NCBI RefSeq assembly: GCF_011762095.1
Contig: NZ_JAASQO010000018.1
Coordinates: 1 to 60,318, forward strand
Direction of reading: 5' to 3'
Length of the DNA stretch: 60,318 bases
Source: Parvibaculum indicum
Lineage (GTDB): Bacteria; Pseudomonadota; Alphaproteobacteria; Parvibaculales; Parvibaculaceae
Made by a program: the position numbers and the translations under genes. The notes beneath the pieces were generated by a model. It did not search any database. It was not told the DNA's origin and worked only from the letters and a program-made list of their open reading frames with translations. Below are positions 11,472-34,858 of the stretch, one piece after another (positions within the stretch are counted from its first letter, which is position 1; each line of letters starts with the position of its first letter).

Positions 11472-12881
11472 TCAGGTAACGGTGAATTGCCCCATCATGC
11501 CAGCGTCTTCATGCTCGAGGATATGGCAGTGAAACATGAGCGGTGTCTCGCGGCTCGCCGGCTGGTCGAAGCGAGTGAGGATCTCGGCCTCGCCGGGGAC
11601 CAGAACGGTATCCTTCCACCCGGTGTCTTCGGGTCGTGGCGGCCCGCCATTCTCGGACACCACCCGGAAGCGCACGCCGTGGACGTGGAATGGATGGGCC
11701 ACCATCGTGCTGCGGACATGCCAGCGCTCGACCGACCCGAGCGCCACCTCGAAATCGACCCTGTTCATGTCGAAGGGGCGGCCGTTTATGGCAAAGCCGC
11801 CGCCGCCCATCATCATGCCGCCTATGCCCATGTCGAGCGAAACCTGTCGGGTCCTGATCTCGTTGCCCGACAGATCCTCGGGTGCACCGTCAAGCTGGTC
11901 CGGCAGGCGCATGATCCGGGCCGTCTGCGTGGGATCTTTCTCGAATTGCAGAACACCATAGGGCTGACCGGGATCGCTGAGCAGCACCGGCGCCCCGCCT
12001 GCGGCGAAATCGACAAGGATCTCCGCGCGTTCGCCCGGAGCAAGCCGCAGCACGTCCAGCGCCAGCGGCGCAGGCAGGTAGCCGCCATCCGTCGCCACCA
12101 GGTGCATCAGCCGCGTGTCGTCGAAGAACAGCGTGTAGATGCGCGCGTTGGAGCCGTTCAGAAGCCGCAGCCGGACGATCCCTTCCGGCACGACCGCCGT
12201 CGCGCCCGCCTGCCCGTTCACCAGCATCCGGTTGCCGGCGAACCCGTGCATGATGTCCATCATGGAAGGGTCATAGACCATCCGTCCCGCGGCATCGAAT
12301 CGTCGATCCTGGAGCACCAGTGTCAGATCATCGACACCGTACTCCGCTGGAAGACCGCGCTGGTCGTCGCGGCCGTCGGCGACATGGATGACGCCCGCCA
12401 GGCCGGAATAGACCTGTGCCGCCGTGCGTTCATGAATATGCGTGTGATACCAGGCGGTTGCCGGATCCTGAGCGATCACCATCTCCGGCCGCCATGTCGC
12501 ACCGGGCGCAATGGCGAGGTGCGGACCGCCATCATGCTCTCCCGGCACCAGGAGACCGTGCCAATGCGCGCTGACAGGCTCGTCCAGCCTGTTGGTGACC
12601 TCGGTCGCAAGGTCGCCGTTCTGCACGATGATCGTCGGCCCCAGATAACCCTGGTTGAAGCCAGCGGTTGCAACGGCGGGTCCGTCACTGAATCTCCTGC
12701 TGCCAGCCATCGCTGTCAGGGACAGCCGACCCGTCGCCCGCGTATCGAGGAGTGGCGGCATCGACAGGCGTGTCAAGCGAGCGGTGTCCTGGGCAAAGGC
12801 ACGCCGGGCAGGCACGGACGAAAGGATACCGGCGGTCAGGAGTGCGGAGAACGAGGAAGTCAGGAACTGGCGTCTTTTCAT
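11472..12881 (-). CDS. Multicopper oxidase (CueO/laccase-like, Tat-exported)
   Basis: The 469-residue protein starts with a twin-arginine signal (KRRQFLTSS, cleavage after AFA at about 30). It has the copper ligands of three-domain multicopper oxidases: HWHG at 106, HTHIH at 146, HPFHVHG at about 396, and HCHILEHEDAGM near 452. The distal Met and Met-rich loop (MGIGGMMMGGG) suggest oxidation of Cu(I) in the periplasm, as in CueO. It follows the SHOCT gene on the same strand by 170 bases. Full length. Confidence 0.92.
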   Translation of the reverse strand: MKRRQFLTSSFSALLTAGILSSVPARRAFAQDTARLTRLSMPPLLDTRATGRLSLTAMAGSRRFSDGPAVATAGFNQGYLGPTIIVQNGDLATEVTNRLDEPVSAHWHGLLVPGEHDGGPHLAIAPGATWRPEMVIAQDPATAWYHTHIHERTAAQVYSGLAGVIHVADGRDDQRGLPAEYGVDDLTLVLQDRRFDAAGRMVYDPSMMDIMHGFAGNRMLVNGQAGATAVVPEGIVRLRLLNGSNARIYTLFFDDTRLMHLVATDGGYLPAPLALDVLRLAPGERAEILVDFAAGGAPVLLSDPGQPYGVLQFEKDPTQTARIMRLPDQLDGAPEDLSGNEIRTRQVSLDMGIGGMMMGGGGFAINGRPFDMNRVDFEVALGSVERWHVRSTMVAHPFHVHGVRFRVVSENGGPPRPEDTGWKDTVLVPGEAEILTRFDQPASRETPLMFHCHILEHEDAGMMGQFTVT

Positions 12882-13050
12882 TCTGGTCTTTCGATAGGCA
12901 TGGCGGGTGCCCGATGCTGGGCCACCCGGACCCCATGGGCAAATCGCTTGCAGTTCCCCCGTATCACGTGCCCGAGGACGGATGCCATTCCATCGTGCAC
13001 GCGCTTACGGGATATCATCCTCTTGGATCATGGAAGCAAGGGAAGTCCGG

Positions 13051-13422: not shown

Positions 13423-13492
13423 CCGTCTCATCCTTTTGGTTGGCGATAATTGCCATAACGTACTCATATGGAGGGTGAGTAACCTCCGCGCC

Positions 13493-13506
13493 CTGATCTA
13501 CATCAA
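13493..13506. promoter_or_regulatory. FNR/FixK-like box
   Basis: CTGAT-CTAC-ATCAA matches the FNR/FixK consensus TTGAT-N4-ATCAA at 9 of 10 positions. It lies between the divergent SHOCT gene (78 bases away) and DUF302 gene (about 150 bases away). A -10-like TATGTT at 13531-13536 sits about 34 bases from the box centre, close to class II geometry for the DUF302 direction. Confidence 0.65.
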
Positions 13507-14040: not shown

Positions 14041-14041
14041 G

Positions 14042-14258: not shown

Positions 14259-15335
14259 CTACGGCGTGATTGCGACCTTCAGGACGCCGTCACGCTGGTG
14301 AGAAAAGAGGTCGTAGGCCGCCTCGATGTCGTCCAGCTTGTAGCGGTGCGTCACCAGCGGTGTCAGGTCCACACGCTCGGACCGGATGACTTCCATCAGC
14401 CGCCGCATGCGCTCCTTGCCGCCCGGGCAGAGCGTTGTCACGATGGTGTGGTCACCAAGTCCGGCAGAGAACGCACCGAGCGGTATCCTGAGGTCGCTTG
14501 AATAGACACCGAGACTCGACAACGATCCCCCTGGCCGCAGGACGCGAAGCGCGGCTTCGAACGTCGCCTGGGTGCCCAGCGCCTCGATGGCGACATCGAC
14601 GCCCCGGCCATCGGTGATGCGCATGATCTCGTCCACGGGATCGACCTTCGTGAAGTCGATGACGTGGCTCGCCCCGAGCTTCTGCGAGATTGCCATCCGC
14701 TCGGCCACCCGGTCCACGGCGATGATGGTCGTCGCGCCGCTCAACCGTGCACCGACTGTCGCGCAAAGACCTATCGGGCCCTGGGCGAAGACCGCGACCG
14801 CGTCGCCGATGCGGACCCTGCCGCGCTCCGCGCCACTGAAGCCGGTCGACATGATGTCCGGGCACATCAGCACCTGCTCGTCGGTGAGCCCGTCCGGCAC
14901 GGGCGCAAGGTTGGCCATCGCGTCTGGTACGAGAATGTACTCCGCCTGGCAGCCGTCGATGGTGTTGCCGAATTTCCAACCCCCCATCGGCTTCCAGCCG
15001 TGTTTCGTGCCGGCACCATCCTGCGAGCAGTAGCCGCAGAGGCAGGCGTTGCTCCAGCCGCTCGGAGTGATCGCTCCAGCAATGACGCGCTGCCCCTCCG
15101 TGTAACCGACGACCGCAGAGCCGAGCTCCTCGATCACGCCGACCGGTTCATGTCCGATCGTGAGCCCCTTCGCGACCGGATACTCCCCCTTCATGATGTG
15201 TACGTCCGTGCCGCAGATCGTGGTGGTGGTGACGCGGACGAGCGCATCGAGCGGGCCGACATCGGGGATCGGCTTTTCATCCAGCGCGATGCGGCCGGGC
15301 TCCACGAAAATGGTCACCTTCATCTTCCGGGTCAT
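14259..15335 (-). CDS. Zinc-dependent alcohol dehydrogenase (MDR family)
   Basis: The 358-residue product has catalytic zinc ligands of the isopropanol/secondary alcohol dehydrogenase type (CGTD at 41, GHE at 61, CPDIMSTGF near 154) and a Rossmann segment (AQGPIGLCA, about 178). Only a partial structural-zinc cysteine set is present (CLCGYC). It interconverts alcohols and aldehydes or ketones with NAD(P)H. The start at 15335 has GGAGG 6 bases upstream. It is last in a minus-strand run with the ATP-grasp and GAPDH genes. It could recycle NAD(P)H produced by the GAPDH, but the substrate is not determined. Confidence 0.88.
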   Translation of the reverse strand: MTRKMKVTIFVEPGRIALDEKPIPDVGPLDALVRVTTTTICGTDVHIMKGEYPVAKGLTIGHEPVGVIEELGSAVVGYTEGQRVIAGAITPSGWSNACLCGYCSQDGAGTKHGWKPMGGWKFGNTIDGCQAEYILVPDAMANLAPVPDGLTDEQVLMCPDIMSTGFSGAERGRVRIGDAVAVFAQGPIGLCATVGARLSGATTIIAVDRVAERMAISQKLGASHVIDFTKVDPVDEIMRITDGRGVDVAIEALGTQATFEAALRVLRPGGSLSSLGVYSSDLRIPLGAFSAGLGDHTIVTTLCPGGKERMRRLMEVIRSERVDLTPLVTHRYKLDDIEAAYDLFSHQRDGVLKVAITP

Positions 15336-15379
15336 CGATAGCCTCCACATGTTTGGGGTCGCCGGTCATGCCTTGGCAA

Positions 15380-16657
15380 TCAGATCACGAAGACCGGGGC
15401 AAAGCCGCCCCCCGGCGTCCTGAAATTGGTGGTCTGGCCCTGATAGAGGCGGGCGGCCACCAGAAGCACCTGCGCGTCATATGTATAGAGCCGCACGTCC
15501 ATCTTGCGCGCCTCGATTGCGTCGTCGATCCGGATCATGCGCTCGCTCGGCTTGACCAGGGTCTGGGCGACGTAGCCGCCATGCGCGATGTCCGACCAGA
15601 CGCCTTTCGTCACCTTGTCGCCGCGGTACACCGCCTTGCCGCCATGTCCGCCTGTCGGCTTGAAGAACAGGCTCTTGCGCGATCTCCACAGGTCATCGGC
15701 AGTTTCGGGAGTGACAACGACGGTTCGCGGGATGGATCTGAGCCGAGCCAAGACTTTCGGTTCCACGCCCCAGCCTTCGAGCATCGCGGGATCCGAGAGG
15801 ATCGAAAGGTTCCGCTTGTCGGCGAGAAGGGCATGGTTGTGCGGATTTGGCGTCGCGACCACCGCGCCATCCCGGTAGGCATCTCTCAGCGCCCTGTGTT
15901 CCGGCTGATCGAACGCGAAGTCGGTGACCCGGTTGTAGACGACGTCGATTGGCTTGCCCTCGACGCTGAGCCGACCGGTTTCATAACGAAGATGGCTGCC
16001 GTCCGCGATAACGGCATCGACGCCGCGTGCGACCAGCGCCTGCCGCACCAGGACGAACTCGGGATAGAGATACTGTTCCTCCGGCCTGTCGTCGACGATG
16101 GCAATTCGGCCTGCGGAACCGCTTCCCCGCTGACGCCCCCATTCGTCCTGGAACATGCGACATGCGACATCCTCGAAGGCGTGCGGCTTCAACGGCATGT
16201 CCATTTCGGCACAGCAAGCGCGCTGCGCCCTTGCAAGAAGTGCGTTGAGGAATGCCCCGCCGGCGTTGGTATTGATCTCGATGAGCCGGGGGCCGTCTTC
16301 GCCGAGATGGAAATCGTAGCCCATCAACGCACCAACAGGGCCGTGATCCACTTGCGAGATTTCCGGCGCCCAGGAGAGGACAGCGGCCTTGTATGCGGTG
16401 AGCCGCGCGGTCGCCTCGATCGCTGCGACCACCTCCTGCATCTCGGCCACCTGGCTGGCCGAGAGGAACACAGGCACATTCGAGAAAAGGTGCGCCTTGG
16501 GGTGGATGAAGGTATCGCAGAACTCCGGGTCGGCAGCCTCGCGCTCAAGCGCCTCGCACAGCGACCGACGGTCGAGGGTGATGCAGAAGCAATTCTGGTT
16601 CAGCCGCTCCGAGAGGGTCTGAACTGGACCCGTGGACGTGGGGCCTGGATCGCTCAT
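15380..16657 (-). CDS. Circularly permuted ATP-grasp-like protein of unknown function
   Basis: A 425-residue cytoplasmic protein. Around residues 110-135 it has DFHLGEDGPRLIEINTNAGG, a metal-binding E-x-N motif of ATP-grasp enzymes that here precedes the nucleotide-binding part (KSLFFKPTGGHGGKAVYRG near 340), so the fold looks permuted, as in glutathionylspermidine-synthase-like and type 2 permuted ATP-grasp proteins. These ligate a carboxylate to an amine via acyl-phosphate; the substrates here are unknown. Its ATG overlaps the stop of a 26-codon ORF (ATGA). TTG at 16666 is an alternative start. Confidence 0.65.
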   Translation of the reverse strand: MSDPGPTSTGPVQTLSERLNQNCFCITLDRRSLCEALEREAADPEFCDTFIHPKAHLFSNVPVFLSASQVAEMQEVVAAIEATARLTAYKAAVLSWAPEISQVDHGPVGALMGYDFHLGEDGPRLIEINTNAGGAFLNALLARAQRACCAEMDMPLKPHAFEDVACRMFQDEWGRQRGSGSAGRIAIVDDRPEEQYLYPEFVLVRQALVARGVDAVIADGSHLRYETGRLSVEGKPIDVVYNRVTDFAFDQPEHRALRDAYRDGAVVATPNPHNHALLADKRNLSILSDPAMLEGWGVEPKVLARLRSIPRTVVVTPETADDLWRSRKSLFFKPTGGHGGKAVYRGDKVTKGVWSDIAHGGYVAQTLVKPSERMIRIDDAIEARKMDVRLYTYDAQVLLVAARLYQGQTTNFRTPGGGFAPVFVI

Positions 16658-16734
16658 CGCCCCCAAAGCCCTGGCTGTCCCGAGGCCGGACGCGCGTCAG
16701 GCCCGATGCGGGCATCGAAAAGTCTTGGAATCAT
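16654..16734 (-). CDS. 26-codon ORF bridging the GAPDH and ATP-grasp genes
   Basis: The ORF begins MIPRLFDARIG and ends LWGR. Its ATG overlaps the GAPDH stop (ATGA) and its TGA overlaps the ATP-grasp start (ATGA). Such double coupling means ribosomes would translate it whether or not the peptide matters, so it may relay translation across the 73-base gap. No family recognised. Confidence 0.4.
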   Translation of the reverse strand: MIPRLFDARIGPDARPASGQPGLWGR

Positions 16735-17786
16735 CGTTGCCTCAGTGTTTCGGTCAGCAGGCCGATCCCGAGTGCCGCATCCGTCTTTGCGATGGAGTCT
16801 TCGGCGCTCGCGATCACTCCGCACAGTGCCCGGATCGCGTCGATCGTCTCTGGAATGACGATGGCCTGGTTGTCCACCATGTAGGCGTAGAACAGTTCGT
16901 CCCCCTGGACCTTCAGCATGTCCGACCAAAGCGCGACTTCGTAGAGGTTGTCATGTGGCCGGCCGAGGTCGGCCATGAGTTCCTTGACCGCGTTGAGGGC
17001 CGTCAACCCGGCATCCATGCGGATCAGGGCAATCCGAGACGATGCGGCAAAGGCGTCGAGCACCTCTTCCCTGGAAGCCGGCCGGGTCAACTGCACCGAC
17101 CAGTAGTGCAGATGGGCCAGGGTCTCCGGCACCTTGACCGCCATCGTGACGACATCGAGGTCGGGGTCGACGCTCTGCGCATCCGGCCCCTGATGGCTGG
17201 GAATCTCGGGCTCGGGGACGAGCGTGTTCATGATCCCGCCGAGGTGACTTTCCCAAGGGTCCGTCGCCCGGCGCAGCAGCGTCCCGCGCGCGCGACGCAG
17301 CAGGCCTGCCTGCTTCAATGCCGTAAGGGTTCTCACGATCGAGGTGGTGTTGCAGGAGACGACGCGCGTGCTGTCCCGGTTCAGCGCACTCGCATAGGTG
17401 GATTCCGCAACGAAGGAGTGTCCGGTCACATCGTGCTTCTCGCCACCCTGGACGATGAACTTGATGCCCCTTTGTCGATAGATGTCGACGTTCACCGCCG
17501 CGATCCGCTTCGGCGTGCAGTCGACCACCAGATCACTCGCTTCAAGCAGATCATCGAGGTTCCCGGCGACATCGAGACCGGCGTTCCGCATCGCCTCTGC
17601 ATGGTCACCGGTGGCTGCGAAAAGGCGGTAACCCTTCTGCGTCGCCATGCGTGGCCGCCAGTCGGCGCTGATATCCGCAACCCCGGCCAGCTCCATATCG
17701 TCTTGCACGGCAACGGCGTCGGCGACACGCTTTCCGATCACGCCGTAGCCGTTGACGGCGACGCGGATCTTTTTCGCTGGGGTCAT
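16731..17786 (-). CDS. Type II (archaeal-type) glyceraldehyde-3-phosphate dehydrogenase
   Basis: The 351-residue product matches the archaeal GAPDH family rather than bacterial GapA: Rossmann VNGYGVIGKRVADAV (11-25), GGEKHDVTGHSFVAEST (114-130), catalytic Cys145 in RVVSCNTT, and PSHQGPDAQSV. It would oxidise glyceraldehyde-3-phosphate with NAD(P)+. In archaeal enzymes the last motif usually reads PSHHGPD, so the second His is Gln here. The start at 17786 has GAGGAG 6 bases upstream. Phosphoketolase, encoded in the same cargo, yields glyceraldehyde-3-phosphate, which gives this enzyme an obvious substrate. Confidence 0.88.
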   Translation of the reverse strand: MTPAKKIRVAVNGYGVIGKRVADAVAVQDDMELAGVADISADWRPRMATQKGYRLFAATGDHAEAMRNAGLDVAGNLDDLLEASDLVVDCTPKRIAAVNVDIYRQRGIKFIVQGGEKHDVTGHSFVAESTYASALNRDSTRVVSCNTTSIVRTLTALKQAGLLRRARGTLLRRATDPWESHLGGIMNTLVPEPEIPSHQGPDAQSVDPDLDVVTMAVKVPETLAHLHYWSVQLTRPASREEVLDAFAASSRIALIRMDAGLTALNAVKELMADLGRPHDNLYEVALWSDMLKVQGDELFYAYMVDNQAIVIPETIDAIRALCGVIASAEDSIAKTDAALGIGLLTETLRQR

Positions 17787-17842
17787 CGGCTTCTCCTCGC
17801 GTTGGTAGCGCACGTCCGTGATGTGCCGCTGGCTGCTGTCGA

Positions 17843-17858
17843 AATACTGCCAAGTATT
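17843..17858. promoter_or_regulatory. Palindromic operator candidate upstream of the GAPDH gene
   Basis: AATACT-GCCA-AGTATT is a perfect 6-bp inverted repeat with a 4-base centre, 57-72 bases upstream of the GAPDH start in a 185-base gap. It is AT-rich against a GC-rich background. It is a candidate binding site for an unidentified regulator. Confidence 0.4.
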
Positions 17859-17971
17859 CCACAAATGCGGCTCAGTTACTGCCCCCGAACCACCCGGCTT
17901 GGCGAATTTCTTTGAACGGTGTCCACCGTATCATGGCCTGTCCAATGCCATCCTCGTTTCCGTTGGCGCCG

Positions 17972-18850
17972 TCAGGATGAAGCGGCGCTCCGCTGCACCA
18001 GGAAGATGCCGCTCAGCACCAGGACGACACCGAAAATCTGGACTGCCTCCAGCCGCTCACCGAAAAAGGCCGCGCCGATAATGAGCCCGAAGATTGGCAC
18101 CAGAAACGTGAAGGCATTCGCCCGACTGAGCTCGACTCGCTCCAGCGCCACGAACCAGAGCCAGAACGCGAGCGATGATCCGAGGACCGCAAGGGAAACG
18201 AGGACGAGGACGAATTCCTTCGACCACGTCAGCACCGAGATGTCTTCCGTCAGCATGGACAGCAGAGCCAAGGGCGCCGCACCGATGAGCAACTGGAAAC
18301 CCATCGCCATGATGGGGTCGGCCTGGCCGGTGAGGCGCTTGATGGCGACATTGCCGATGGAAACACCGGTGGCGGCAAGCAAGACATAGGCGATGCCTTG
18401 GGAGTAGCCTCGGGCGTCGTCTCCGGCGAGGCCCGGCCACGCGACCACCGTGATGCCGGCCAAGCCGACCGCAAGCCCGATCCTTCCAGTCGCCTTGAGG
18501 CGTTCCTCCAGGAAAACATACGCGAGAACCGCGGCGACGATCGGCTGCACGTTCGCGATGACGGTCGCGAGTCCCGGCGAAACGAACTCGGCCGCATGGA
18601 ACATGCCGAAGAAACCCATGCTTGTCGCCCCCAGCCCGACCACGACGATCAGAAACCAGGGCCGCGCGCCGACAGGAACCGGACGATGGCAGAGGGCTCC
18701 GAGTGCAATCAGGCAAACGCCTGCCAACGCAGCGCGCAGGGCCGCAAAGGCAAGATGCGGCGCAAGGTCCAGGCCAATGGTGATGAGGGGAAAGCATGCG
18801 GCCCAAAGCACCATGACCACCAGAAGGCGGAGGGCGGCGCCGATGGTCAT
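17972..18850 (-). CDS. EamA/DMT-family transporter
   Basis: A 292-residue protein with about ten membrane helices in two EamA repeats (LRLLVVMVLWAACFPLITIGLDLAP and a second repeat from about 150). DMT-family exporters move amino acids and other metabolites; the substrate cannot be read from sequence. It is the first gene of the minus-strand half of the cargo. An FNR-like box with a well-spaced -10 lies about 80 bases upstream. Confidence 0.88.
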   Translation of the reverse strand: MTIGAALRLLVVMVLWAACFPLITIGLDLAPHLAFAALRAALAGVCLIALGALCHRPVPVGARPWFLIVVVGLGATSMGFFGMFHAAEFVSPGLATVIANVQPIVAAVLAYVFLEERLKATGRIGLAVGLAGITVVAWPGLAGDDARGYSQGIAYVLLAATGVSIGNVAIKRLTGQADPIMAMGFQLLIGAAPLALLSMLTEDISVLTWSKEFVLVLVSLAVLGSSLAFWLWFVALERVELSRANAFTFLVPIFGLIIGAAFFGERLEAVQIFGVVLVLSGIFLVQRSAASS

Positions 18851-18900: not shown

Positions 18901-18941
18901 AGAGTAATCCGTCCTATCATTGCCAAATTGATCCAGATCAG
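18901..18941 (-). promoter_or_regulatory. FNR/FixK-like box and -10 for the EamA gene (bidirectional region)
   Basis: TTGAT-CCAG-ATCAG (18928-18941) matches TTGAT-N4-ATCAA at 9 of 10 positions. On the minus strand a -10-like TACTCT (18901-18906) is centred 31 bases from the box centre, as expected for class II FNR-activated promoters. The box is nearly midway between the EamA start (18850) and the first plus-strand cargo gene (19010). A plus-strand -10 is less clear. Confidence 0.65.
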
Positions 18942-19615: not shown

Positions 19616-19851
19616 CCCATCACGATCACTCACCCGCCGAGCCAAAGGCAGACGAAGATCGGCGCCAGCCGTTTCTGAAAACACCGGCGGGACTTGCGAT
19701 CTGCGTGTTTCTCGCCGTCGGCGGCGTCCTTCTTGTTTTCGAGCACAGGGTTCATCTCCTGGGAGCCTGGCCGCTCCTGTTCCTGCTGGTCTGCGGCGGC
19801 ATGCACTTCTTCATGCATCGAGGTCACGGTGGTGGCAGCGATGAACGGTGA
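19612..19851 (+). CDS. DUF2933 domain-containing small membrane protein
   Basis: A 79-residue protein with a His-rich N-terminus (MTHHDHSP), two short membrane segments (about 27-42 and 49-64) and a C-terminal CGGMHFFMHRGHGG typical of DUF2933. These proteins sit in copper/silver resistance clusters; the His and Met residues suggest metal handling, but no function is proven. It is coupled to the ORF before it and overlaps the next gene by 11 bases. Confidence 0.8.
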   Translation: MTHHDHSPAEPKADEDRRQPFLKTPAGLAICVFLAVGGVLLVFEHRVHLLGAWPLLFLLVCGGMHFFMHRGHGGGSDER

Positions 19852-20497
19852 TGTTCCTGCCTACGGCCTGTGGTTTCTGGCGGCCCTGAACGCGGGCATC
19901 TTCATCCTGTTCGCCTTCAGCTTCTTCAAGCCCGAAACGACGCGCGACTGGCGCTCGCTCGGGGCCTTTTCGGCCTTCATCGTTGCCCTGTTCGCCGAGA
20001 TGTACGGGTTCCCGCTGACGCTCTATCTGCTGGCAGGCTGGCTCGGCAGCACCGTGCCGGCTTTCGATCCGCTCTCGCACGATGCAGGACATCTTTGGCC
20101 AGCCCTGTTCGGCTGGTCCATGAATCCGCATTTCAGCCCGTTCCATCTGCTGAGCTACGTCCTCATTGGCGGCGGTTTCATACTGATCGCCGCCGCCTGG
20201 CGGGTGCTGCACGATGCGCAGAAGAAGGGATTGCTCGCGACGACCGGCCCTTACGCCCGCTTGCGGCATCCGCAGTATCTCGGCTTCGCGCTGATCATGA
20301 TCGGATTTTTCCTGCAGTGGCCAACGCTGGTGACGGGTCTGATGCTGCCAGTGCTTCTGGTCATGTATTGGCGGCTCGCAAGGACCGAGGAGCGCGAAGT
20401 AGAGGCGGCCTTCGGTGACCAATACCGCCGCTATGCCAGTGCGGTTCCGGCTTTCCTGCCGCGCCCCTCCAATCTGCTTCGTTCGAGCAGGGGGTGA
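19841..20497 (+). CDS. Isoprenylcysteine carboxylmethyltransferase/PEMT-like membrane protein
   Basis: A 218-residue protein with four to five membrane helices and the C-terminal family motif (TGPYARLRHPQYLGFALIMIG, later EEREVEAAFGDQYRRYASAVPAFLP) of the ICMT/phospholipid methyltransferase superfamily. It would use S-adenosylmethionine at the membrane. In metal-resistance clusters it often follows DUF2933; the substrate is unknown. ATG at 19841 overlaps the DUF2933 3' end. Confidence 0.8.
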   Translation: MNGDVPAYGLWFLAALNAGIFILFAFSFFKPETTRDWRSLGAFSAFIVALFAEMYGFPLTLYLLAGWLGSTVPAFDPLSHDAGHLWPALFGWSMNPHFSPFHLLSYVLIGGGFILIAAAWRVLHDAQKKGLLATTGPYARLRHPQYLGFALIMIGFFLQWPTLVTGLMLPVLLVMYWRLARTEEREVEAAFGDQYRRYASAVPAFLPRPSNLLRSSRG

Positions 20498-24877: not shown

Positions 24878-24941
24878 CTTTGGTGCATTCAGCAGCGCGG
24901 ACGACCTACGCAGGGCTGCATGCGCAAGAGGAATTCGATTG

Positions 24942-26169: not shown

Positions 26170-28554
26170 ATGAACAAGCCGCTTTCGACCGACCTCATCC
26201 AGAAGATGGACGCCTACTGGCGAGCGGCCAACTATCTCTCGGTTGGCCAGATCTATCTGTTCGACAACCCGTTGCTCAGGACACCCTTGAAGATCGAGCA
26301 CGTGAAGCCGCGACTGCTCGGTCATTGGGGCACCACCCCGGGGTTGAACTTCATCTATGTCCATTTGAACCGCATTATCAACGAGCATGACCTGAACATG
26401 ATGTATGTCACCGGCCCCGGGCACGGAGGCCCTGGCCTGGTGGCCAACACCTATCTCGAGGGAACCTATAGCGAACTCTACCCGGACATCTCGCAGGACG
26501 AAGCGGGGATGAAGAAGCTGTTCACGCAGTTTTCCTTTCCCGGCGGCATACCGAGTCACGTTGCGGCGGAGACGCCAGGCTCCATCAATGAAGGCGGTGA
26601 ACTCGGCTATTGCCTGTCGCATGCCTACGGCGCCGCCTTCGACAATCCCGATCTGCTCGTGGCTTGTGTCGTGGGCGATGGCGAGGCGGAAACTGCCGCA
26701 CTCGCCACCAGCTGGCACTCGAACAAATTTCTCAATCCGGTGCACGACGGCGCGGTCCTGCCGATCCTGCATCTGAACGGCTACAAGATAGCAGGCCCCA
26801 CCGTGCTTGCCCGCATTCCCCGTGACGAGCTCGAATCGCTGTTTCGCGGCTACGGCTACACGCCTCACTTCGTCGAGGGCGACGATCCGATGGAGATGCA
26901 TCAGCTCATGGCTGAGACGCTCGATACCGTGGTCGAAAGCATCCGCCACATCCAGCAAGATGCCCGCGCCAACGGATTCAAGAAGCGTCCGCTCTGGCCG
27001 ATGATCATTTTGCGGTCACCGAAAGGTTGGACTGGCCCGAAGGAGGTCGACGGCAAACCGACGGAGGGAACCTATCGCTCGCACCAGGTGCCCATGGGCG
27101 ACATGAGCCATCCCGGGCACGTAAAGGTTCTGGAAGAGTGGCTGGAGAGCTATCGCCCGCGAGAACTGTTCGACGAGACCGGCAGGCTACGGCCCGAACT
27201 CGCTGAACTGGCCCCGTGCGGCCCGCGGCGGATGGGCGCCAATCCGCATGCCAATGGCGGCCTGCTATTGCGCGACTTGCACCTTCCGGATTTCCGAGAC
27301 TACGCGGTGAAGATTCCGAAACCCGGTAGCGTGAGTGCGGAAGCTACGCGCGTCCAAGGCGAACTGATCCGCGACGTGATCAAACTGAACCCCGAAACCT
27401 TCCGCGTTTTCAGTCCGGACGAAACGGCGTCGAACCGCTGGGGTGCGGTATTCGAGGTGACCAACCGTTGTTCGACCGCGGAAATAGTTCCCGGCGACGA
27501 CCATGTTGCGCCGGACGGCCGGGTGATGGAGGTCTTGAGCGAGCACCAGTGCGAAGGATGGCTCGAAGGATATCTGCTCACGGGCAGACATGGCTTTTTC
27601 TCCTGCTACGAAGCCTTCATCCACATCATCGATTCGATGTTCAACCAACATGCCAAGTGGCTCGACGTTGCGAACCGCATTCCATGGCGGCGGCCGGTTG
27701 CTTCTCTGAACTACCTGCTTTCGTCACACGTGTGGCGGCAGGATCACAATGGTTTCAGCCATCAGGATCCTGGCTTCATAGATCACGTCATGAGCAAGAA
27801 GGCGGAGGTCATCCGCGTCTATTTGCCGCCCGACGCCAATACCCTGCTCTCCGTTACCGATCATTGCCTGCGCAGCCGAAATTACGTGAACGTCATTGTT
27901 GCCGGCAAGCAACCGTCGCCGCAGTGGCTCGATATGGATGCCGCCATCCGGCACTGCACCACCGGACTGGGCATCTGGGAATGGGCCAGCACCGACGAAG
28001 GTGGCGAGCCGGACGTGGTGATGGCCTGCGCAGGCGACGTGCCAACTATTGAAACACTGGCTGCGGTCGAAATCTTGCGTCAGCATTTCCCAGTGCTCAG
28101 GATCCGGGTCATCAACGTGGTCGACCTGATGACTTTGCAGTCACAGAACCAGCATCCGCACGGCCTAAGCGACGAGGACTTCGATGCGCTGTTCACCAGG
28201 GACAAACCCATCATCTTTGCCTATCACGGGTATCCCCTGCTGATTCACAAGCTGACCTATCGTCGAGCCAACCATCACAATCTGCACGTTCACGGGTTCA
28301 AGGAAGAGGGAACGACGACGACACCATTCGACATGGTCGTGCTCAACGAGCTTGATCGGTTCCATCTGGCTAAAGCCGTTGTTGAGCGGGTGCCGCGATT
28401 GGGTCCGGAAGCGGCAGCCTTCGCTCAATTCATCGGCGCCAAACTCTCCGCTCACGGATCCTACATCCGACAGCACGGCGAGGACATGCCAGAAATCCGA
28501 AACTGGCAATGGGCCGCAAATGGAGGGCATTCCAATACTTCCAGAAAAGCATGA
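26170..28554 (+). CDS. xfp: Phosphoketolase (xylulose-5-P/fructose-6-P)
   Basis: The 794-residue enzyme has the expected family blocks: [60 protein letters not shown], the thiamine-diphosphate segment [20 protein letters not shown], and C-terminal [10 protein letters not shown]. It splits xylulose-5-phosphate with phosphate into acetyl-phosphate and glyceraldehyde-3-phosphate (or fructose-6-phosphate into acetyl-phosphate and erythrose-4-phosphate). Full length. With acetate kinase it forms an ATP-yielding pair. Confidence 0.97.
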
Positions 28555-28586: not shown

Positions 28587-29372
28587 ATGAGCGAGCACGA
28601 CGATGCAATCGAGAAAAGCGGCTTTCACTGGCGCATCATGCGCTGGATCCTGTGGCGCTTTATCTGCAACGCAGCTGAGCGCGTTCTCATCGACAGAAGC
28701 CTGAGGAACAAGACGGGCGGTGAAATTCGCTGGTTGCAGAACGACATCGATTTGTTCCTGAGCCAGGTCTCAACGAGGACGGCGCTCCTGCGCCCGGTGG
28801 CGCAGCTTGACGCATTGCCAAATTTCGGCAGTCGCCTCATGGTCGAGCTTGCGATCTATACCGTTGCGGCCGACCGGACGCTGCGTGACCGAGATCTTGA
28901 TCCCCAAAGCGCGCGGGACGCCTTGGCGGACATCGGTTGGTCCGTCTATCGCAGGCAGCTTGCCCTCTCGTCCCTGCCCGCTCGCCTCGTCACCCGCGAC
29001 CCGGGAAAGCGATTGCGCTGGAGCATCCGCGGGCTGCTCGTTTTCCCCTTCCGGCCCGTGGGTGCCCCCGGCTACGCCGCCGAAGTCTTTCGAAAAGGCG
29101 AGGACATCCACACGCACTTCACGCACTGTCCCCCGCAAAGCTTTGCCCGGCGCATTGCCGACGAGACGGGCGATCCTGAAGCACTGGCCGGCTTCGCAAA
29201 CAGCTGGTGCAAATATGACTGGCCTGGCGCCGATCTGATCGCCGCCGACGGACATCGGGGACACTATATCCGGCGGCAAACACTCTCGGCCGGGGATCCG
29301 GTCTGCGACATGTGCTGGGCGGCGCGGGCACCCCGCCAGACCAGCGAAAACAACAATGAAGACGGCAAATGA
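28587..29372 (+). CDS. L-2-amino-thiazoline-4-carboxylate hydrolase-like protein
   Basis: A 261-residue protein whose C-terminal half (THCPPQSFARRIADETGD, then SWCKYDWPGADLIAADG, then RQTLSAGDPVCDMCW) fits the ATC-hydrolase family (PF14196-like). That family is named for opening the thiazoline ring on the way to L-cysteine; most members are uncharacterised. The N-terminal half is helical. ATG at 28551, overlapping the phosphoketolase stop (ATGA), is an alternative start that adds 12 residues. Confidence 0.6.
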   Translation: MSEHDDAIEKSGFHWRIMRWILWRFICNAAERVLIDRSLRNKTGGEIRWLQNDIDLFLSQVSTRTALLRPVAQLDALPNFGSRLMVELAIYTVAADRTLRDRDLDPQSARDALADIGWSVYRRQLALSSLPARLVTRDPGKRLRWSIRGLLVFPFRPVGAPGYAAEVFRKGEDIHTHFTHCPPQSFARRIADETGDPEALAGFANSWCKYDWPGADLIAADGHRGHYIRRQTLSAGDPVCDMCWAARAPRQTSENNNEDGK

Positions 29373-29418: not shown

Positions 29419-29481
29419 ATGAGAAACGCGACGATCGATGCGCCGACCAGCGATCCCAAGAAGAACAGGCGGGCCTTATGA
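29419..29481 (+). CDS. 20-codon ORF coupled to the glucoamylase-like gene
   Basis: The ORF starts at ATG 29419 with GGAG upstream, encodes MRNATIDAPTSDPKKNRRAL, and its TGA overlaps the next gene's ATG (ATGATG). It may serve as a translational lead-in; no peptide function is visible. Confidence 0.3.
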   Translation: MRNATIDAPTSDPKKNRRAL

Positions 29482-30791
29482 TGCAGCGGCAATCGCATGT
29501 GAAACGGCCCCACTCCGGAGAAACGAGGCTGGATGCGTTACAGCGGCATGCCTTCGATTACTTCCTGAACGAAACCAATCTCGCCAATGGCCTCGTAGCC
29601 GACAAATCGCAGCCGGGCGCGCCCGCGAGCATCGCAGCCGTGGGTTTCGCCCTGGCGGCCTACCCCGTCGGTGTCGAGCGCGCATGGATCTCACGCATAA
29701 GTGCAATCGACCGGACTCTGGCGGCATTGCGGTTCTTCAGCAACGCCCCGCAGGGCACGGACCCTGACACGACCGGGCACAAGGGCTTCTTCTATCACTT
29801 TCTCGACATGACGACCGGGCGGCGCGCGGGCATTTGCGAGCTGTCCACCGTCGATACCGGATTCCTGCTGGCCGGCATGCTCGCCGCCGCTGCGTATTTT
29901 GATCGGAACAGTGAAGACGAGCAGGAGATACGGTCGCTCGCCGACGCGCTTTACCGCCGGGCGGACTGGCAATGGGCCTGCAACGGCGGCGAGACGATCA
30001 CCCACGGGTGGACGCCTGAGGGCGGATTTCTGCCTTACCGCTGGGAAGGCTATGATGAGGCCTCTCTTCTGTATGTACTCGCATTGGGCTCACCAACCCA
30101 TCCGCTGGCTGCAGAGGGCTACATAGCGTGGACCTCGACCTACCAATGGAAGGAAATCTACGGCTACGAATTCATTTATGGCGGACCGCTCTTCATCCAC
30201 CAGTACTCGCACATCTGGATAGACTTCCGCGGAATCCAGGATGCATTCACGCGAGACAAAGGCATCGACTATTTCGAGAACAGCCGCCGCGCCACCTACG
30301 TCCAGCGGGAATACGCGATCCGCAATCCGCTCGGATTTGCGGGCTACGGAGAGAATTTCTGGGGCCTGACCGCGAGTGACGGGCCCGGTCGGACGACGCG
30401 GCGCGTCAATGGCATCGAGCGCGCTTTCTTCGACTATGCCGCCCGTGGGGCGCCGTACGGCCCTGACGACGGAACGGTCGCGCCGTGGGCCGTGCTGGCG
30501 GCGTTGCCGTTCGCACCGGAAATCGTGTTGCCGGCGATTGCGCATTTTCAGGACGTGTATCCGCAGGTGACCGGAAAGTACTGCTTTCGGTGTAGCTTCA
30601 ACCTGAGCTTTCAGAACGAAGAAGATGTCCACGGTGGCTGGACGTCGCCCTATCACTTCGGGATCAACCTCGGTCCCGTGGTGCTGATGTGTGAGAATTA
30701 CCGATCGGAATTACTGTGGCGGCTGATGCGAGCCAGCCCTTACATAGTTACAGGTTTCCGTCGCGCGGGATTCACCGGCGGTTGGCTGTGA
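29478..30791 (+). CDS. Glucoamylase-family (PF10091-like) protein
   Basis: The 437-residue protein has the family's (alpha/alpha)6-type blocks: LQRHAFDYFLNETN, ASIAAVGFALAAYPVGVER, GFFYHFLDMTTGRR (about 113-126), ELSTVDTGFLLAGML, GFLPYRWEGYDEASLLYVLALGSPTHPL and GLTASDGPG. No signal peptide is visible, so it would act in the cytoplasm on oligosaccharides such as beta-glucans or storage glucan. Related domains occur in cyclic glucan synthases. The enzymatic target is not established. Confidence 0.8.
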   Translation: MMQRQSHVKRPHSGETRLDALQRHAFDYFLNETNLANGLVADKSQPGAPASIAAVGFALAAYPVGVERAWISRISAIDRTLAALRFFSNAPQGTDPDTTGHKGFFYHFLDMTTGRRAGICELSTVDTGFLLAGMLAAAAYFDRNSEDEQEIRSLADALYRRADWQWACNGGETITHGWTPEGGFLPYRWEGYDEASLLYVLALGSPTHPLAAEGYIAWTSTYQWKEIYGYEFIYGGPLFIHQYSHIWIDFRGIQDAFTRDKGIDYFENSRRATYVQREYAIRNPLGFAGYGENFWGLTASDGPGRTTRRVNGIERAFFDYAARGAPYGPDDGTVAPWAVLAALPFAPEIVLPAIAHFQDVYPQVTGKYCFRCSFNLSFQNEEDVHGGWTSPYHFGINLGPVVLMCENYRSELLWRLMRASPYIVTGFRRAGFTGGWL

Positions 30792-30916: not shown

Positions 30917-31915
30917 ATGCGGCTGATCCTGCCTTTGCCCGGCAACGAAACTTTTGCCCGTCATCTTGCTGAAGCCGGAGGATGGGAGCTTGGGCACATC
31001 GAAACCCGGCGTTTCCCCGATGGCGAGAGCTATGTCCGCATTCTTTCGGATGTCGCCGATCGGCCGGTGGATTTGGTCTGCACGCTTGCACGGCCGGCCG
31101 ATGGCTTCCTCAGCCTCGCATTCGCCGCGGACGCCGCCCGCTCGCTTGGCGCGAGCGAGGTGACGCTGATCGCGCCCTACCTTTCCTACATGCGACAAGA
31201 CCGACGCTTCCAACCGGGCGAGGCCATAACTTCGAAGACATTCGCGCGGCTCCTATCTTCGACCTTCGACCGCCTGGTGACAGTCGACCCCCACCTACAC
31301 CGATATCCTGCGCTTTCCGCGCTCTACACGATCCCGACCGATACGCTGCACGCGGCACCTCTGCTGGCAGATTGGATCGCCGCAGAGGTCGACAAACCGC
31401 TGATCGTCGGCCCGGATGAGGAGAGCGAACAGTGGGTGTCGGCAATCGCCGAGCGCATCGGCGCTCCGTATACCGTCCTGCGCAAGATCCGGCATGGCGA
31501 CCGCAACGTCGATGTCGAATTGCCCGACCTTTCGGAATGGAAGGCCCACTGTCCGGTCATCGTCGATGACATAGCCTCGTCCGGGCAAACGCTCATCGAT
31601 GCGGCAAAGAAGCTGCCGCTCCAGGGCTTCCGGCGACCTGTCTGCGCAGTTGTCCATGGCGTATTCGCCGAAGGATCCTATGAGCGCCTGAGGCTCCTCA
31701 CCGACAGAATAGTTTCCAGCGACTCCATTCCACATGAGAGCAACGCCATCGGGCTTGCGCCGCTGATCGCAGCCATGATCGCGTCCGCCAACAAGACTCC
31801 GGTCGACATAAAGCGGCACCGCCGTCCGCCCGAACCTTATGACGAAGTTGAACAGGCGGGCCTGGATTCGTTTCCCGCCAGCGATGCTCCGCCTTGGACA
31901 GGTGGCGTCGACTGA
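30917..31915 (+). CDS. prs: Ribose-phosphate pyrophosphokinase (PRPP synthase)
   Basis: The 332-residue enzyme has RQDRRFQPGEAITSK (about 94-108), VDPHLHRY, a catalytic Lys/Arg region RKIRHGDRNVDVELP and the PRPP loop PVIVDDIASSGQTLID (about 214-229). It converts ribose-5-phosphate and ATP to PRPP and AMP, and the reverse. VDPHLHRY resembles archaeal and class III enzymes more than the bacterial housekeeping Prs. It ends with an added tail (EVEQAGLDSFPASDAPPWTGG) known from unrelated alphaproteobacterial stress proteins. Confidence 0.9.
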   Translation: MRLILPLPGNETFARHLAEAGGWELGHIETRRFPDGESYVRILSDVADRPVDLVCTLARPADGFLSLAFAADAARSLGASEVTLIAPYLSYMRQDRRFQPGEAITSKTFARLLSSTFDRLVTVDPHLHRYPALSALYTIPTDTLHAAPLLADWIAAEVDKPLIVGPDEESEQWVSAIAERIGAPYTVLRKIRHGDRNVDVELPDLSEWKAHCPVIVDDIASSGQTLIDAAKKLPLQGFRRPVCAVVHGVFAEGSYERLRLLTDRIVSSDSIPHESNAIGLAPLIAAMIASANKTPVDIKRHRRPPEPYDEVEQAGLDSFPASDAPPWTGGVD

Positions 31916-31970: not shown

Positions 31971-33329
31971 ATGCTCAAATTCACATCACTCGGCGGTGCG
32001 GGCACTGTCACCGGTTCGAAACATCTTCTTGACCATGACGGCAAGCGGATCCTCGTCGACTGCGGATTGTTCCAGGGCCTTAAGAACCTGCGTGAGTTGA
32101 ATTGGGAGTCACTGCCGATCGCCCCTTCGAGCATCGATGCAGTGGTTCTCACCCACGCCCATCTCGATCATTCTGGCTATTTGCCCAAGCTCGTAAGGGA
32201 TGGCTTCCAGGGCAAGATCTTCGCAACCGACGCGACGCACGACGTTGCGAAGCTGATCCTGAGGGACAGCGGGTTTCTCCAGGAGAAGGATGCCGAATAC
32301 GCAAACCGCAAGGGGTTCTCGAAGCATAAGCCGGCCCTACCGCTCTACGGGGTTCGCGACGCGGAACGCGCCCTCGAACGCTTCTCGTCAGTTCGGTTCG
32401 ACGAGCCCATGCAATTGCCCGGCGGTGCGACTCTGAGGTTCAGGCATGCAGGCCACATCATGGGTGCCGCCACCGCAGATATCGAATGGGGCGGCAAGCG
32501 GATCGTGTTTTCCGGGGACCTGGGGCGTTATGACGATCCGGTCATGCCCGATCCGGTCTTGGTTCCGGAGGCAGATTATATTGTCGTTGAATCGACTTAC
32601 GGCAACCGAACCCATCAAAAGGGCGATCCGACCGAGATGCTGGGTTCCGTCATCGACCGCACGGTTCAGCGCGGCGGGACCGTGGTGATTCCGGCATTCG
32701 CCGTTGGCCGGGCGCAGTCGCTGCTCTATCACCTCTGGCAATTAAAGCAGGCTGGTCGTCTGGCATCCATCCCGATTTTCCTCGACAGTCCGATGTCGAT
32801 CAGCGCGACCGACCTGCTTCACACGCATCGCGCGGATCACCGGCTCTCGCCTGAGGTTTGCGACGCAGTCTGCGCCATCGCCACCTACACCAGGGACGTC
32901 GAGGCATCCAAGGCGATTACCGCCAGTACCTATCCCAAGGTGGTGATCTCTGCCAGTGGCATGGCGACCGGTGGCCGCGTTCTCCACCATCTCAAAGCCT
33001 TTGCACCCGATCAGAAGAACACCATTCTGTTCTCTGGCTTTCAGGCGGCCGGAACCCGCGGACGAGCCATGTTGCAGGGCGCCCGTGAGATCAAGATCCA
33101 CGGACAGTGGATACCGGTCCAGGCAGAGATTGCCGACCTTCCTGCACTTTCGGCGCACGCAGATTCCGATGAGCTGATGCGCTGGCTCTCCGGCTTTCGT
33201 CATGCGCCTGCCCGCACCTTCATCGTCCATGGGGAGCCCGAAGCTTCGGAAGCCCTGCGCGTCCGCATCGGCAGGGAGCTGGAGTGGAAGGCCACCGTTC
33301 CCCGCCAGGATCAGGCGTTCGACCTATGA
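31971..33329 (+). CDS. Metallo-beta-lactamase/beta-CASP RNA-processing exonuclease
   Basis: The 452-residue protein has motif 2 THAHLDHSG (61-69), motif 3 RHAGHIMGAA (near 160), motif 4 SGDLGRYDDP, and the beta-CASP parts ESTYGNR, PAFAVGRAQ, SASGMATGGR and late IVHGE. These identify the CPSF73/RNase J-like group that cleaves or degrades RNA using two zinc ions. The AGGAGG just upstream (31960-31965) supports the start. Its stop overlaps the phosphorylase start (ATGA), so the two are translationally coupled. Confidence 0.92.
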   Translation: MLKFTSLGGAGTVTGSKHLLDHDGKRILVDCGLFQGLKNLRELNWESLPIAPSSIDAVVLTHAHLDHSGYLPKLVRDGFQGKIFATDATHDVAKLILRDSGFLQEKDAEYANRKGFSKHKPALPLYGVRDAERALERFSSVRFDEPMQLPGGATLRFRHAGHIMGAATADIEWGGKRIVFSGDLGRYDDPVMPDPVLVPEADYIVVESTYGNRTHQKGDPTEMLGSVIDRTVQRGGTVVIPAFAVGRAQSLLYHLWQLKQAGRLASIPIFLDSPMSISATDLLHTHRADHRLSPEVCDAVCAIATYTRDVEASKAITASTYPKVVISASGMATGGRVLHHLKAFAPDQKNTILFSGFQAAGTRGRAMLQGAREIKIHGQWIPVQAEIADLPALSAHADSDELMRWLSGFRHAPARTFIVHGEPEASEALRVRIGRELEWKATVPRQDQAFDL

Positions 33330-34858
33330 GCCAGGGTGACGCCGAACTCCCCGCCACACCGAAGCTGCGCGCAACACGCCTTCGCCTGCACACACAGCAC
33401 CAGGCGGTGGTCATCATGCGGACCGACTGCCATGTCTGCCGCTCGGAGGGTCTGGCTTCCCGATCGCAGGTCCTGGTGTCGAGCGGTGGCCGGGAGGTGC
33501 AGGCAACCCTGTTCCAGATCGAGGGGGACGATCTGCTCGCCATCGATCAGATTGCGCTCACCGAAACCACATGGAAGATCCTGAGCCTCGACGAGGATGC
33601 CGCGGTCACCGTCACGCATGCACCGACGCTCGAATCCCTCGCCAGTGTCCGCCGTCGGATCTATGGGAATCGCCTCGACGCGCACGCCGTAGGGTCGATC
33701 GTCAGGGACGTCGCCGCACGACGCTACACAGATGTGCATCTGGCGGCCTTCCTGACGGCGAGCGCCGCCCTTCCTCTGGACGAGCAGGAGACCATCGATC
33801 TGACGGGAGCCATGGTCGATGTCGGCGAGCGCTTGCACTGGGATTCCCCGATCGTGCTCGACAAGCATTGCATTGGCGGACTGCCGGGCAACCGCACCAC
33901 CCCGATCGTCGTCGCGATCGTTGCAGCCTGCGGACTCGTGATTCCCAAGACCTCGTCGCGCGCAATCACATCGCCGGCAGGAACTGCGGATACCATGGAG
34001 ACGCTTGCACCGGTTGACCTTGATATCGCGACGCTCCGACGCGTCGTGGAGGCCGAGGGCGGCTGCATTGCCTGGGGCGGGGCGATGCATCTCAGTCCGG
34101 CCGACGATATTTTCGTCCGCATAGAGCGCGAGCTCGATGTCGATACCGAGGGACAGCTCATCGCTTCGGTCCTGTCTAAGAAGATCGCGGCCGGCTCGAC
34201 GCACGTCGTGATCGATATCCCGGTCGGAGCTACCGCGAAGGTCCGCGGCGAGGCGTCGGCGCGTCACCTCGCGGAACGGATCAGCGCCGTCGCTGCGCGT
34301 TTCGGACTCTCGGCCACTTGCCTCTTGACCGACGGATCGCAACCGGTCGGTCGCGGAATAGGCCCGGCTCTGGAAGCGCTCGATGTCCTCGCGGTTCTCC
34401 GTAGTGCACCGGATGCACCGGATGATCTGCGCAGACGCGCGGCGGCACTGGCTGGCGCCGCCCTGGAGATTGGTGGGAAGGCCGCCAAGGGGGAAGGAGC
34501 AGCCGCTGCGCTTGCGACCCTTGCGGACGGGCGAGCCTGGCGGAAGTTCCAGGCCATTTGCGCGGCGCAAGGAGGCATGCGCACGCCGCCGCGGGCGTCC
34601 CACATTCATCCACTGATCGCACCGCGTGCAGGTCGCATTGTTCATATCAACAATCGCAAGCTGGCAAGGCTCGCCAAGCTCGCTGGCGCGCCGGAAGCCA
34701 AGGCAGCGGGCGTCTACTTGAATGTGAGTCTCGGTCAGGAGATCGACAAGGCCGAGGCACTGCTTGACATCCACGCGGAATCCGCGGGCGAACTCGCCTA
34801 TGCGTTGGAGTATGCGCGAAGAAGTCCGGACATCATCGAAGTTGAGCTTTCGTCTTGA
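33326..34858 (+). CDS. deoA: AMP phosphorylase (archaeal-type, thymidine phosphorylase family)
   Basis: At 510 residues it is longer than bacterial thymidine phosphorylase (about 440) and carries the extra N-terminal domain (about 1-90) of archaeal AMP phosphorylases. The phosphate/nucleotide site reads LDKHCIGGLPGNRTTPIVV (near 185), followed by SSRAITSPAGTADTMETLAPVDL, both archaeal AMPpase-like. The expected reaction is AMP + Pi to adenine + ribose-1,5-bisphosphate, though pyrimidine nucleoside activity cannot be excluded. It is coupled to the RNase gene and is the last gene of the run. deoA is the symbol of the wider family. Confidence 0.85.
   Translation: MSQGDAELPATPKLRATRLRLHTQHQAVVIMRTDCHVCRSEGLASRSQVLVSSGGREVQATLFQIEGDDLLAIDQIALTETTWKILSLDEDAAVTVTHAPTLESLASVRRRIYGNRLDAHAVGSIVRDVAARRYTDVHLAAFLTASAALPLDEQETIDLTGAMVDVGERLHWDSPIVLDKHCIGGLPGNRTTPIVVAIVAACGLVIPKTSSRAITSPAGTADTMETLAPVDLDIATLRRVVEAEGGCIAWGGAMHLSPADDIFVRIERELDVDTEGQLIASVLSKKIAAGSTHVVIDIPVGATAKVRGEASARHLAERISAVAARFGLSATCLLTDGSQPVGRGIGPALEALDVLAVLRSAPDAPDDLRRRAAALAGAALEIGGKAAKGEGAAAALATLADGRAWRKFQAICAAQGGMRTPPRASHIHPLIAPRAGRIVHINNRKLARLAKLAGAPEAKAAGVYLNVSLGQEIDKAEALLDIHAESAGELAYALEYARRSPDIIEVELSS

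Follow-up and report, generated by a model that had tools for sequence, protein, structure and literature searches.

One of the nearest described relatives of the system considered here is the archaeal NMP (AMP) phosphorylase with its pentose bisphosphate pathway. TK0352 of Thermococcus cleaves AMP, CMP and UMP according to an excerpt of one paper (PMC9700705), and all natural nucleoside monophosphates (NMPs) according to an excerpt of another (PMC8376864). PhnN of E. coli phosphorylates ribose-1,5-bisphosphate (R15P) to phosphoribosyl pyrophosphate (PRPP), as the former excerpt states (PMC9700705). In this report, we compare with these systems a block of genes carried by a conjugative element of Parvibaculum indicum. 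The stretch of DNA analysed, 60,318 nucleotides long and called "the window" at its full length, is contig NZ_JAASQO010000018.1 of assembly GCF_011762095.1 (our C18), one of the 37 contigs of a 4.02 Mb genome. An original prediction, made from the letters of this DNA, described the block as a mobile low-oxygen energy and nucleotide-salvage module, and named as its missing link the conversion of R15P to ribose-5-phosphate or ribulose-1,5-bisphosphate. That module is real and recurrent, and its gap was named rightly. Judging from sequence and gene neighbourhood, we lean towards the view that the core of the cargo is an R15P salvage unit of the conjugative element, in which a PRPP-synthase-like protein (hereafter the Prs-like protein) would consume R15P and a shell of further genes would yield ATP.

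The phosphorylase and the R15P gap

The core comprises three genes:

30917..31915, plus strand: PRPP-synthase-like protein (PRK07199, 424 bits, cut-off 322)
31971..33329, plus strand: beta-CASP metallo-beta-lactamase RNase (PF00753, PF10996, PF07521)
33326..34858, plus strand: NMP-phosphorylase-type protein, here TP (PRK04350, TIGR02645)

These calls, like those for the other cargo enzymes, come from Pfam and NCBIfam profile searches of the window's proteins, which located every enzyme that the prediction had named. The RNase carries all three of the MBL, Beta-CASP and RMMBL domains, and the predicted coupling of its gene to that of TP is present as an ATGA at 33326-33329, where the stop of the one overlaps the start of the other.

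TP passes the cut-offs of both of its families (PRK04350, 660 bits against 434; TIGR02645, 566 against 434.6), and the solved structure nearest to it by sequence is 4ga5, which we take to be the AMP phosphorylase of Thermococcus. Its annotated relatives bear the name "thymidine phosphorylase family". Its family and its neighbours suggest that TP converts AMP or another NMP, with phosphate, to the free base and R15P, a reading supported by the PhnN genes that adjoin TP elsewhere. Of 385 class genomes, 57 have TP over cut-off, as do 44 of 398 phylum genomes; 171 plasmid records match it (98 with coverage of at least 80%), a number that probably includes ordinary thymidine phosphorylases. The host has two copies, the second of which lies in another TP, Prs-like and RNase set on contig C8 (G000:C8:198115-200522, L046); by tblastn, the two sets share 49% identity in TP, 41% in the Prs-like protein and 39% in the RNase.

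R15P would thus be the intermediate shared with the archaeal pathway, to whose phosphorylase TP is homologous (4ga5). The onward step differs, for the consumer of R15P would here be the Prs-like protein or PhnN. An archaeal route via R15P isomerase was rejected: that enzyme (TIGR00511) was over cut-off in none of the 80 genomes, host included, that were searched for enzyme families (40 TP-rich genomes and 40 hand-picked comparison genomes of the same class, mostly larger and without TP over cut-off). The weaker matches, at 75-181 bits, are presumably methylthioribose-1-phosphate isomerases. The host possesses an ordinary Prs and ribose-5-phosphate isomerase A, and neither PhnN nor R15P isomerase was over cut-off in it; the Prs-like protein is therefore the sole candidate found in the host genome for R15P use. 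Clustering of the open reading frames (ORFs) that neighbour TP (a TP count of 106, the window's own excluded) offered no other likely candidate for the missing enzyme; PhnN came from the family search and tblastn rather than from this clustering. The gap seen in the original prediction is real, but it is probably filled from within the block by the Prs-like protein.

A rebuilt member of the PRPP synthase family

PRPP synthase acts on C1 of ribose-5-phosphate, to which it transfers the beta and gamma phosphates of ATP as one unit. The Prs-like protein shares the sequence family and catalytic residues of the class I and archaeal PRPP synthases, and its nearest solved structure by sequence is an archaeal one, 1u9y, which we take to be the M. 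jannaschii enzyme. It retains the catalytic Lys190 and Arg192, FPDGE (FxDxE), RQD, His126 and the DD motif. It differs in its pyrophosphate loop, which has been rewritten to G-P-D-x-E-S-x-Q-W, so that the ordinary PDxG becomes PDxES; further, HLHR replaces HxxQ, and Gly224 of the second phosphate loop is lost. Position 169, which we take to lie in the loop that holds pyrophosphate in PRPP synthase, is Glu in 88 of 88 Prs-like proteins, whereas all 34 ordinary enzymes compared have Gly (tblastn extractions of the 30 best-scoring ordinary loci, with weaker paralogues outside the sample, plus four solved chains). Position 170 is Ser in all 88, and Gly (31), Ala (2) or Asp (1) in the ordinary enzymes. 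Thirty-five later proteins from phylum loci, which are not fully independent in that at least one locus had been sampled before, have Glu at position 169 without exception and Ser (32) or Ala (3) at position 170. A tree thinned to 50 rows places the Prs-like proteins together on one side of a branch whose SH-aLRT is 99.

The family also keeps company with TP at the level of whole genomes. PRK07199 was over cut-off in 30 of the 385 class genomes, and TP was over cut-off in all 30 (Fisher p 7e-36 against 41 TP-rich genomes, without correction for kinship). TP reaches at least 640 bits in 29 of these genomes; in the other, G227, it is split across two contigs. Two genomes, G271 and G175, hold both genes though on different contigs, and PRK07199 was over cut-off in none of 14 well-known control genomes. 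An orphan Prs-like protein with a PDEES loop was also observed (L214:8431-9399, minus strand); TP does not reach its cut-off in that genome.

The name of the NCBIfam family, ribose-phosphate diphosphokinase, invites a plainer account, namely that the protein is an ordinary if divergent PRPP synthase, and that the pair serves nucleotide salvage: TP would recover bases and ribose phosphate, and Prs would supply PRPP for rebuilding nucleotides. The retained Lys190/Arg192, FPDGE and DD motif fit this account, which we nonetheless think unlikely, since the host already carries an ordinary Prs, the pocket glycine has become Glu in every Prs-like protein of both samples, PhnN adjoins TP in other loci, and in the class sample the family is over cut-off only in genomes with TP. 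Because of its sequence and its neighbours, we favour the Prs-like protein as, probably, the R15P-consuming step that fills the gap. The suggestion that a PRPP synthase run in reverse yields ATP fares poorly on the same grounds, the loop and the neighbours indicating that this is probably not the ordinary enzyme.

PhnN in the place of the Prs-like protein

Three sets of TP loci were compared: a class sample of 60 (58 over the TP cut-off and two, G038 and G363, below it; the window's own not included), the best 80 of at least 586 loci from GTDB, which are biased to close relatives, and 40 of 42 further places in the phylum (G595, a fragment, and G613, which is below cut-off, being left out). 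Some loci may be shared between sets, since L105 and L246 encode identical (100%) phosphoketolase-like proteins. A neighbour was called when it resembled one of the window's proteins or one of a few others, so that diverged relatives are missed.

Across these 180 loci, the Prs-like gene is present in 132 (within 1.5 kb of TP in 122) and PhnN in 9 (always within 1.5 kb), and the two never occur together. PhnN adjoins TP in five class-sample loci (L042, L056, L081, L082 and L084), where all pass TIGR02322, and in four phylum loci (L256-L259), where it was identified by tblastn. It has R15P as substrate but belongs to a guanylate-kinase-like family, unlike that of the Prs-like protein. On a tree of 97 TP proteins, out of 100 rows (L096 and L098 were too short and the very divergent L097 was left out), the PhnN label needs two changes. 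Among TP-rich genomes, PhnN occurs in 6 of 10 without the Prs-like protein versus 5 of 30 with it (p 0.014, without correction for kinship; G365, with a sub-cut-off Prs-like gene adjacent to TP, counted as positive), and it occurs in 14 of the 40 comparison genomes. At 16 of the 19 low-scoring class-sample loci (L080, L083 and L085-L098), the locus holds no Prs-like gene, PhnN or RNase.

A steady core and a variable shell

The RNase is present in 31 and the Prs-like gene in 26 of the 41 high-scoring class loci (L039-L079), 37 of which have at least one of them; both are absent from the 19 lower-scoring loci. The best 80 GTDB loci include 71 with the Prs-like gene and 55 with the RNase, and the 40 phylum loci 35 and 14, respectively. 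TP with the Prs-like gene, often joined by the RNase, recurs across Pseudomonadota, and the GTDB loci with the module include titles such as Flavobacterium, Aequorivita and Arenibacter (Bacteroidota genera) and Pyrinomonadaceae. So the steadiest part of the block is TP plus the Prs-like gene; the RNase is frequent, and the energy genes are a variable shell.

Other genes recur less often in this GTDB set of 80: relatives of the copper-type ATPase occur in 27 loci, those of the methyltransferase and of a phosphoketolase-like protein in 20 each, of acetate kinase and type II glyceraldehyde-3-phosphate dehydrogenase (GAPDH) in 12 each, of an ATP-grasp-like protein and polyphosphate kinase 2 in 8 each, and of phosphoketolase in 5. 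At least three shell genes stand together in 20 of these loci, one of the 60 class loci and three of the 40 phylum loci. The proposal that the gene set is conserved as a unit therefore holds for TP, the Prs-like gene and often the RNase, but not for phosphoketolase, acetate kinase and type II GAPDH, which with the copper-type ATPase form a looser shell. Nor do the alcohol dehydrogenase (ADH) and the glucoamylase-like protein, both included in the predicted unit, belong to it: relatives of the window's ADH occur in one of the 80 GTDB loci, and those of its glycoamylase in none of the 80 and in one of the 40 phylum loci. Zinc ADHs other than the window's type are annotated near TP on two of the six plasmids viewed.

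The varying gene order among loci, the variable shell and the scarcity of relatives of the ADH and the glucoamylase would be expected of a loose stress island, whose genes are neighbours by selection for mobility and share no joint pathway. We consider this very improbable, for the clusters of TP with the Prs-like gene or the RNase are tight, the co-occurrence extends to genes on different contigs (G271, G175), and two separate operons of like-named genes in Bradyrhizobium depend on FixK2, according to an excerpted gene table (PMC9104804).

Three observations concern the kinases and phosphoketolases. The host has a second phosphoketolase gene (G000:C13:73979-75052). A divergent phosphoketolase-like family of 793 aa, with 23-26% identity to the window's enzyme, occurs at L105:6238-8619 and L033:16275-18644; its gene order is Prs-like, XFP-like, RNase, TP, and its annotation on plasmids reads "xylulose 5-phosphate 3-epimerase". 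The polyphosphate kinase 2 genes near TP (L159:1840-2703 and seven others) would fit a role in AMP/ADP conversion.

The insertion and its cargo

The block lies between trbB and a small gene that precedes traG. By Pfam, TrbI, TrbL and TrbE-type and TrbB-type ATPases lie to its left (1.9-11.3 kb), and TraG, a relaxase and a RepA-type replication gene to its right (36.3-44.6 kb). In Shinella sp. PSBB067 (L260), the alignments to trbB and to the small gene end 221 bases apart; the same gap in the window is 24.6 kb. The block is therefore an insertion into a conjugative element, and the prediction of mobile cargo is upheld. The flanking genes and the cargo outside the core are as follows:

10234..11301, minus strand: trbB (PF00437), left flank of the insertion
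11472..12881, minus strand: multicopper oxidase (PF07731, PF07732)
14259..15350, minus strand: zinc ADH (PF00107, PF08240)
15380..16666, minus strand: ATP-grasp-like protein (PF14403 below cut-off; no family over cut-off)
16731..17864, minus strand: type II (archaeal-type) GAPDH (TIGR01546, 339.8 bits, cut-off 232.9)
17972..18850, minus strand: EamA-family transporter (PF00892), first gene of a minus-strand run with type II GAPDH and ADH
19694..20497, plus strand: PEMT/ICMT-type methyltransferase (PF04191)
21243..23522, plus strand: heavy-metal (copper-type) P-type ATPase (PF00122, PF00403)
23519..24877, plus strand: amino acid permease (PF13520), overlapping the stop of the ATPase gene
24843..26165, plus strand: acetate kinase (PF00871; ackA, TIGR00016); judged by eye, the true start is probably ~24942
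26170..28554, plus strand: phosphoketolase (PRK05261.1-4, 1487 bits)
28587..29372, plus strand: protein without a Pfam or NCBIfam match
29478..30791, plus strand: glycoamylase-family protein (PF10091)
35857-36288: small gene before traG, right flank of the insertion
36292..38277, minus strand: traG (PF02534), right flank of the insertion

The ATP-grasp-like protein has many invariant residues and recurs near the module, in 2 of the 40 phylum loci as well as the GTDB loci counted above. Type II GAPDH was over cut-off in one of the 80 class genomes searched, that of the window's own host. Its nearest solved structures are archaeal-type GAPDHs (1cf2 and others), so that the label "archaeal-type" suits this enzyme, TP (4ga5) and the Prs-like protein (1u9y), but not the RNase, whose nearest structure is TTHA0252, which we take to be a Thermus protein.

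The multicopper oxidase and the P-type ATPase, both new relative to the original prediction, join DUF302 genes as copper-type cargo. One might accordingly regard the block as primarily a copper-tolerance island for low-oxygen niches, with sugar-phosphate genes that co-travel for general stress. Relatives of the ATPase in 27 of the 80 GTDB loci accord with such an island, as do the copper genes that surround the operon on Agrobacterium and Paracoccus plasmids (mercury genes too on the former). Yet the pair of TP and Prs-like genes recurs without copper genes, and 34 of the 40 phylum loci have no relative of the ATPase; we judge a primarily copper-directed function improbable.

Repeats around the block revealed no convincing transposon boundary, and no terminal overlap was found that would indicate a circular contig. 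To the right of TP, the translation of 34944-35759 resembles, by eye, a broken serine recombinase, with no Pfam match. The G+C content falls to 0.556 at 48001-50000, which holds a 404-aa ORF (48659-49873, minus strand) with no Pfam family. The element's backbone also encodes a 1540-aa protein with AAA_34 and strawberry-notch helicase domains (52244-56866, minus strand).

Likely low-oxygen control

Genes with the same product names form two operons in B. diazoefficiens, as the excerpted gene table of PMC9104804 records. A FixK motif lies at -74 of bll3117 in the predicted operon bll3117-bll3116-bll3115 and another at -89 of bll2518 in the operon bll2518-bll2517, and a fixK2 mutation lowers expression of bll3117 6.6-fold, bll3115 30.6-fold, bll2518 10.0-fold and bll2517 10.2-fold; the products are a TP-family protein (bll3117), an MBL protein (bll3115), phosphoketolase (bll2518) and acetate kinase (bll2517). 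An excerpt of another paper places bll3115, bll3116, bll3117 and bll2518 among the genes or proteins induced at 0.5% O2 (PMC6515984). There, one low-oxygen regulator governs genes for a TP-family protein, Prs, an MBL protein, phosphoketolase and acetate kinase, but in two separate operons rather than one contiguous mobile block, and in a table that gives no pathway (PMC9104804). The lxa locus of Burkholderia cenocepacia (BCAM0275-0323) is a further low-oxygen system, with a metallo-beta-lactamase-family protein, an ADH and a phosphotransacetylase-type protein (PMC6127331; background also in excerpts of PMC3759415 and PMC9104464). It is likened to the block by description and not by sequence, and the terms "thymidine phosphorylase" and "phosphoketolase" are absent from the main text of PMC6127331.

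Exact FNR boxes are enriched at related loci: the 80 GTDB loci hold 16 (in 13 loci) versus a shuffled mean of 1.65, and 47 alphaproteobacterial loci hold 16 (in 12) versus 0.8. The window has no exact box, and it has two FNR/FixK-like boxes in the cargo with one mismatch:

13493..13506, plus strand: between the divergent SHOCT and DUF302 genes
18928..18941, plus strand: ~78 bp upstream of the EamA ORF

Both fall within the cargo's 2.1 kb of intergenic DNA. The relaxed pattern occurs five times in the whole window versus 3.2 after shuffling, which is not above chance, and two of these matches are internal to cargo genes. By kinship with the relatives' operons, this block is likely to be under oxygen control. 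The low-oxygen character ascribed to the block finds backing in a relative, through the like-named FixK2-dependent Bradyrhizobium genes.

Discussion

The chemistry that we infer for the core is as follows. TP would convert 5'-nucleotides and phosphate to base and R15P, and the Prs-like protein, its phosphate pocket rebuilt, would then consume the R15P. It would most likely do so in one of two ways. It may move the C1 phosphate onto AMP (R15P + AMP -> ribose-5-phosphate + ADP), or it may form PRPP from R15P, as PhnN does. With Glu in the site of the terminal phosphate, the enzyme could handle one phosphate fewer than PRPP synthase, catalyzing ribose-5-phosphate + ADP <-> R15P + AMP; in the direction of ribose-5-phosphate, the phosphate of R15P would be saved as ADP. 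PhnN and an ordinary Prs run in reverse would together achieve the same overall conversion, and this would account for the ability of PhnN and the Prs-like protein to substitute for one another. Beyond the core, the host's ribose-5-phosphate isomerase and the cargo's phosphoketolase and acetate kinase could carry pentose phosphate to acetyl-phosphate and on to ATP, and type II GAPDH would oxidise triose phosphate. The beta-CASP RNase of this element could supply nucleotides from RNA.

A bolder form of this proposal, which we put forward tentatively and regard as possible rather than probable, is that the Prs-like protein represents a new activity, a ribose-1,5-bisphosphate:AMP phosphotransferase. 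It would have evolved from PRPP synthase by the filling of the terminal-phosphate pocket and would move one phosphate, not two. TP and the Prs-like protein would then constitute a route from NMP to ribose-5-phosphate without R15P isomerase, RuBisCO or PhnN, with the net conversion of two AMP and one phosphate to adenine, ribose-5-phosphate and ADP. On conjugative elements that join the pair to RNase, phosphoketolase and acetate kinase, it would amount to a transferable means of RNA-based living at low oxygen.

Several observations weigh against the R15P salvage unit or its extensions. Moving the phosphate from R15P to AMP may be energetically unfavourable under standard conditions. TP scores 478.6 bits against the 535 required by the curated AMP-phosphorylase family TIGR03327 (AMP_phos), so the idea of an archaeal-type AMP phosphorylase stands as regards TIGR02645 and PRK04350 but not this family. 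Neither the Prs-like gene nor PhnN is present in 39 of the 180 TP loci, some of which are short contigs; several of these genomes have one or the other elsewhere. One Prs-like protein near the cut-off (G051, 312 bits) has the same loop, and its genome lacks a TP that passes the cut-off. As to the shell, phosphoketolase was over cut-off in only 7 of the 80 genomes, and it was rejected as an essential partner on that count. The RNase is absent from 26 of the 40 phylum loci. Exact FNR boxes show little enrichment at 19 low-scoring loci (2 versus 0.8 shuffled), and the 40 phylum loci hold one (a count without shuffles). The Bradyrhizobium genes were matched to those of the window by product name and not by sequence. 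Finally, the last three columns for these genes in the excerpted table, which seem to denote nodule induction and direct targets of NifA and of FixK2, read "-" (PMC6515984).

RNA as fuel is thus an option and not the core, because the RNase is found in just 14 of the 40 phylum loci. The RNA-burning package that the original prediction envisaged is plausible for extended versions of the block, but the general core is the R15P unit.

In the titles and abstract openings of the one library covered, we found no proposal of such a bacterial pathway; an earlier description may exist. If the proposal is correct, a widespread bacterial R15P pathway has been concealed by annotation names, the pair being called thymidine phosphorylase family protein and ribose-phosphate pyrophosphokinase or diphosphokinase in annotated plasmid records. 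Further, a housekeeping enzyme would have been adapted to close a metabolic gap, and a group of rhizobial genes that respond to oxygen would acquire a definite function.

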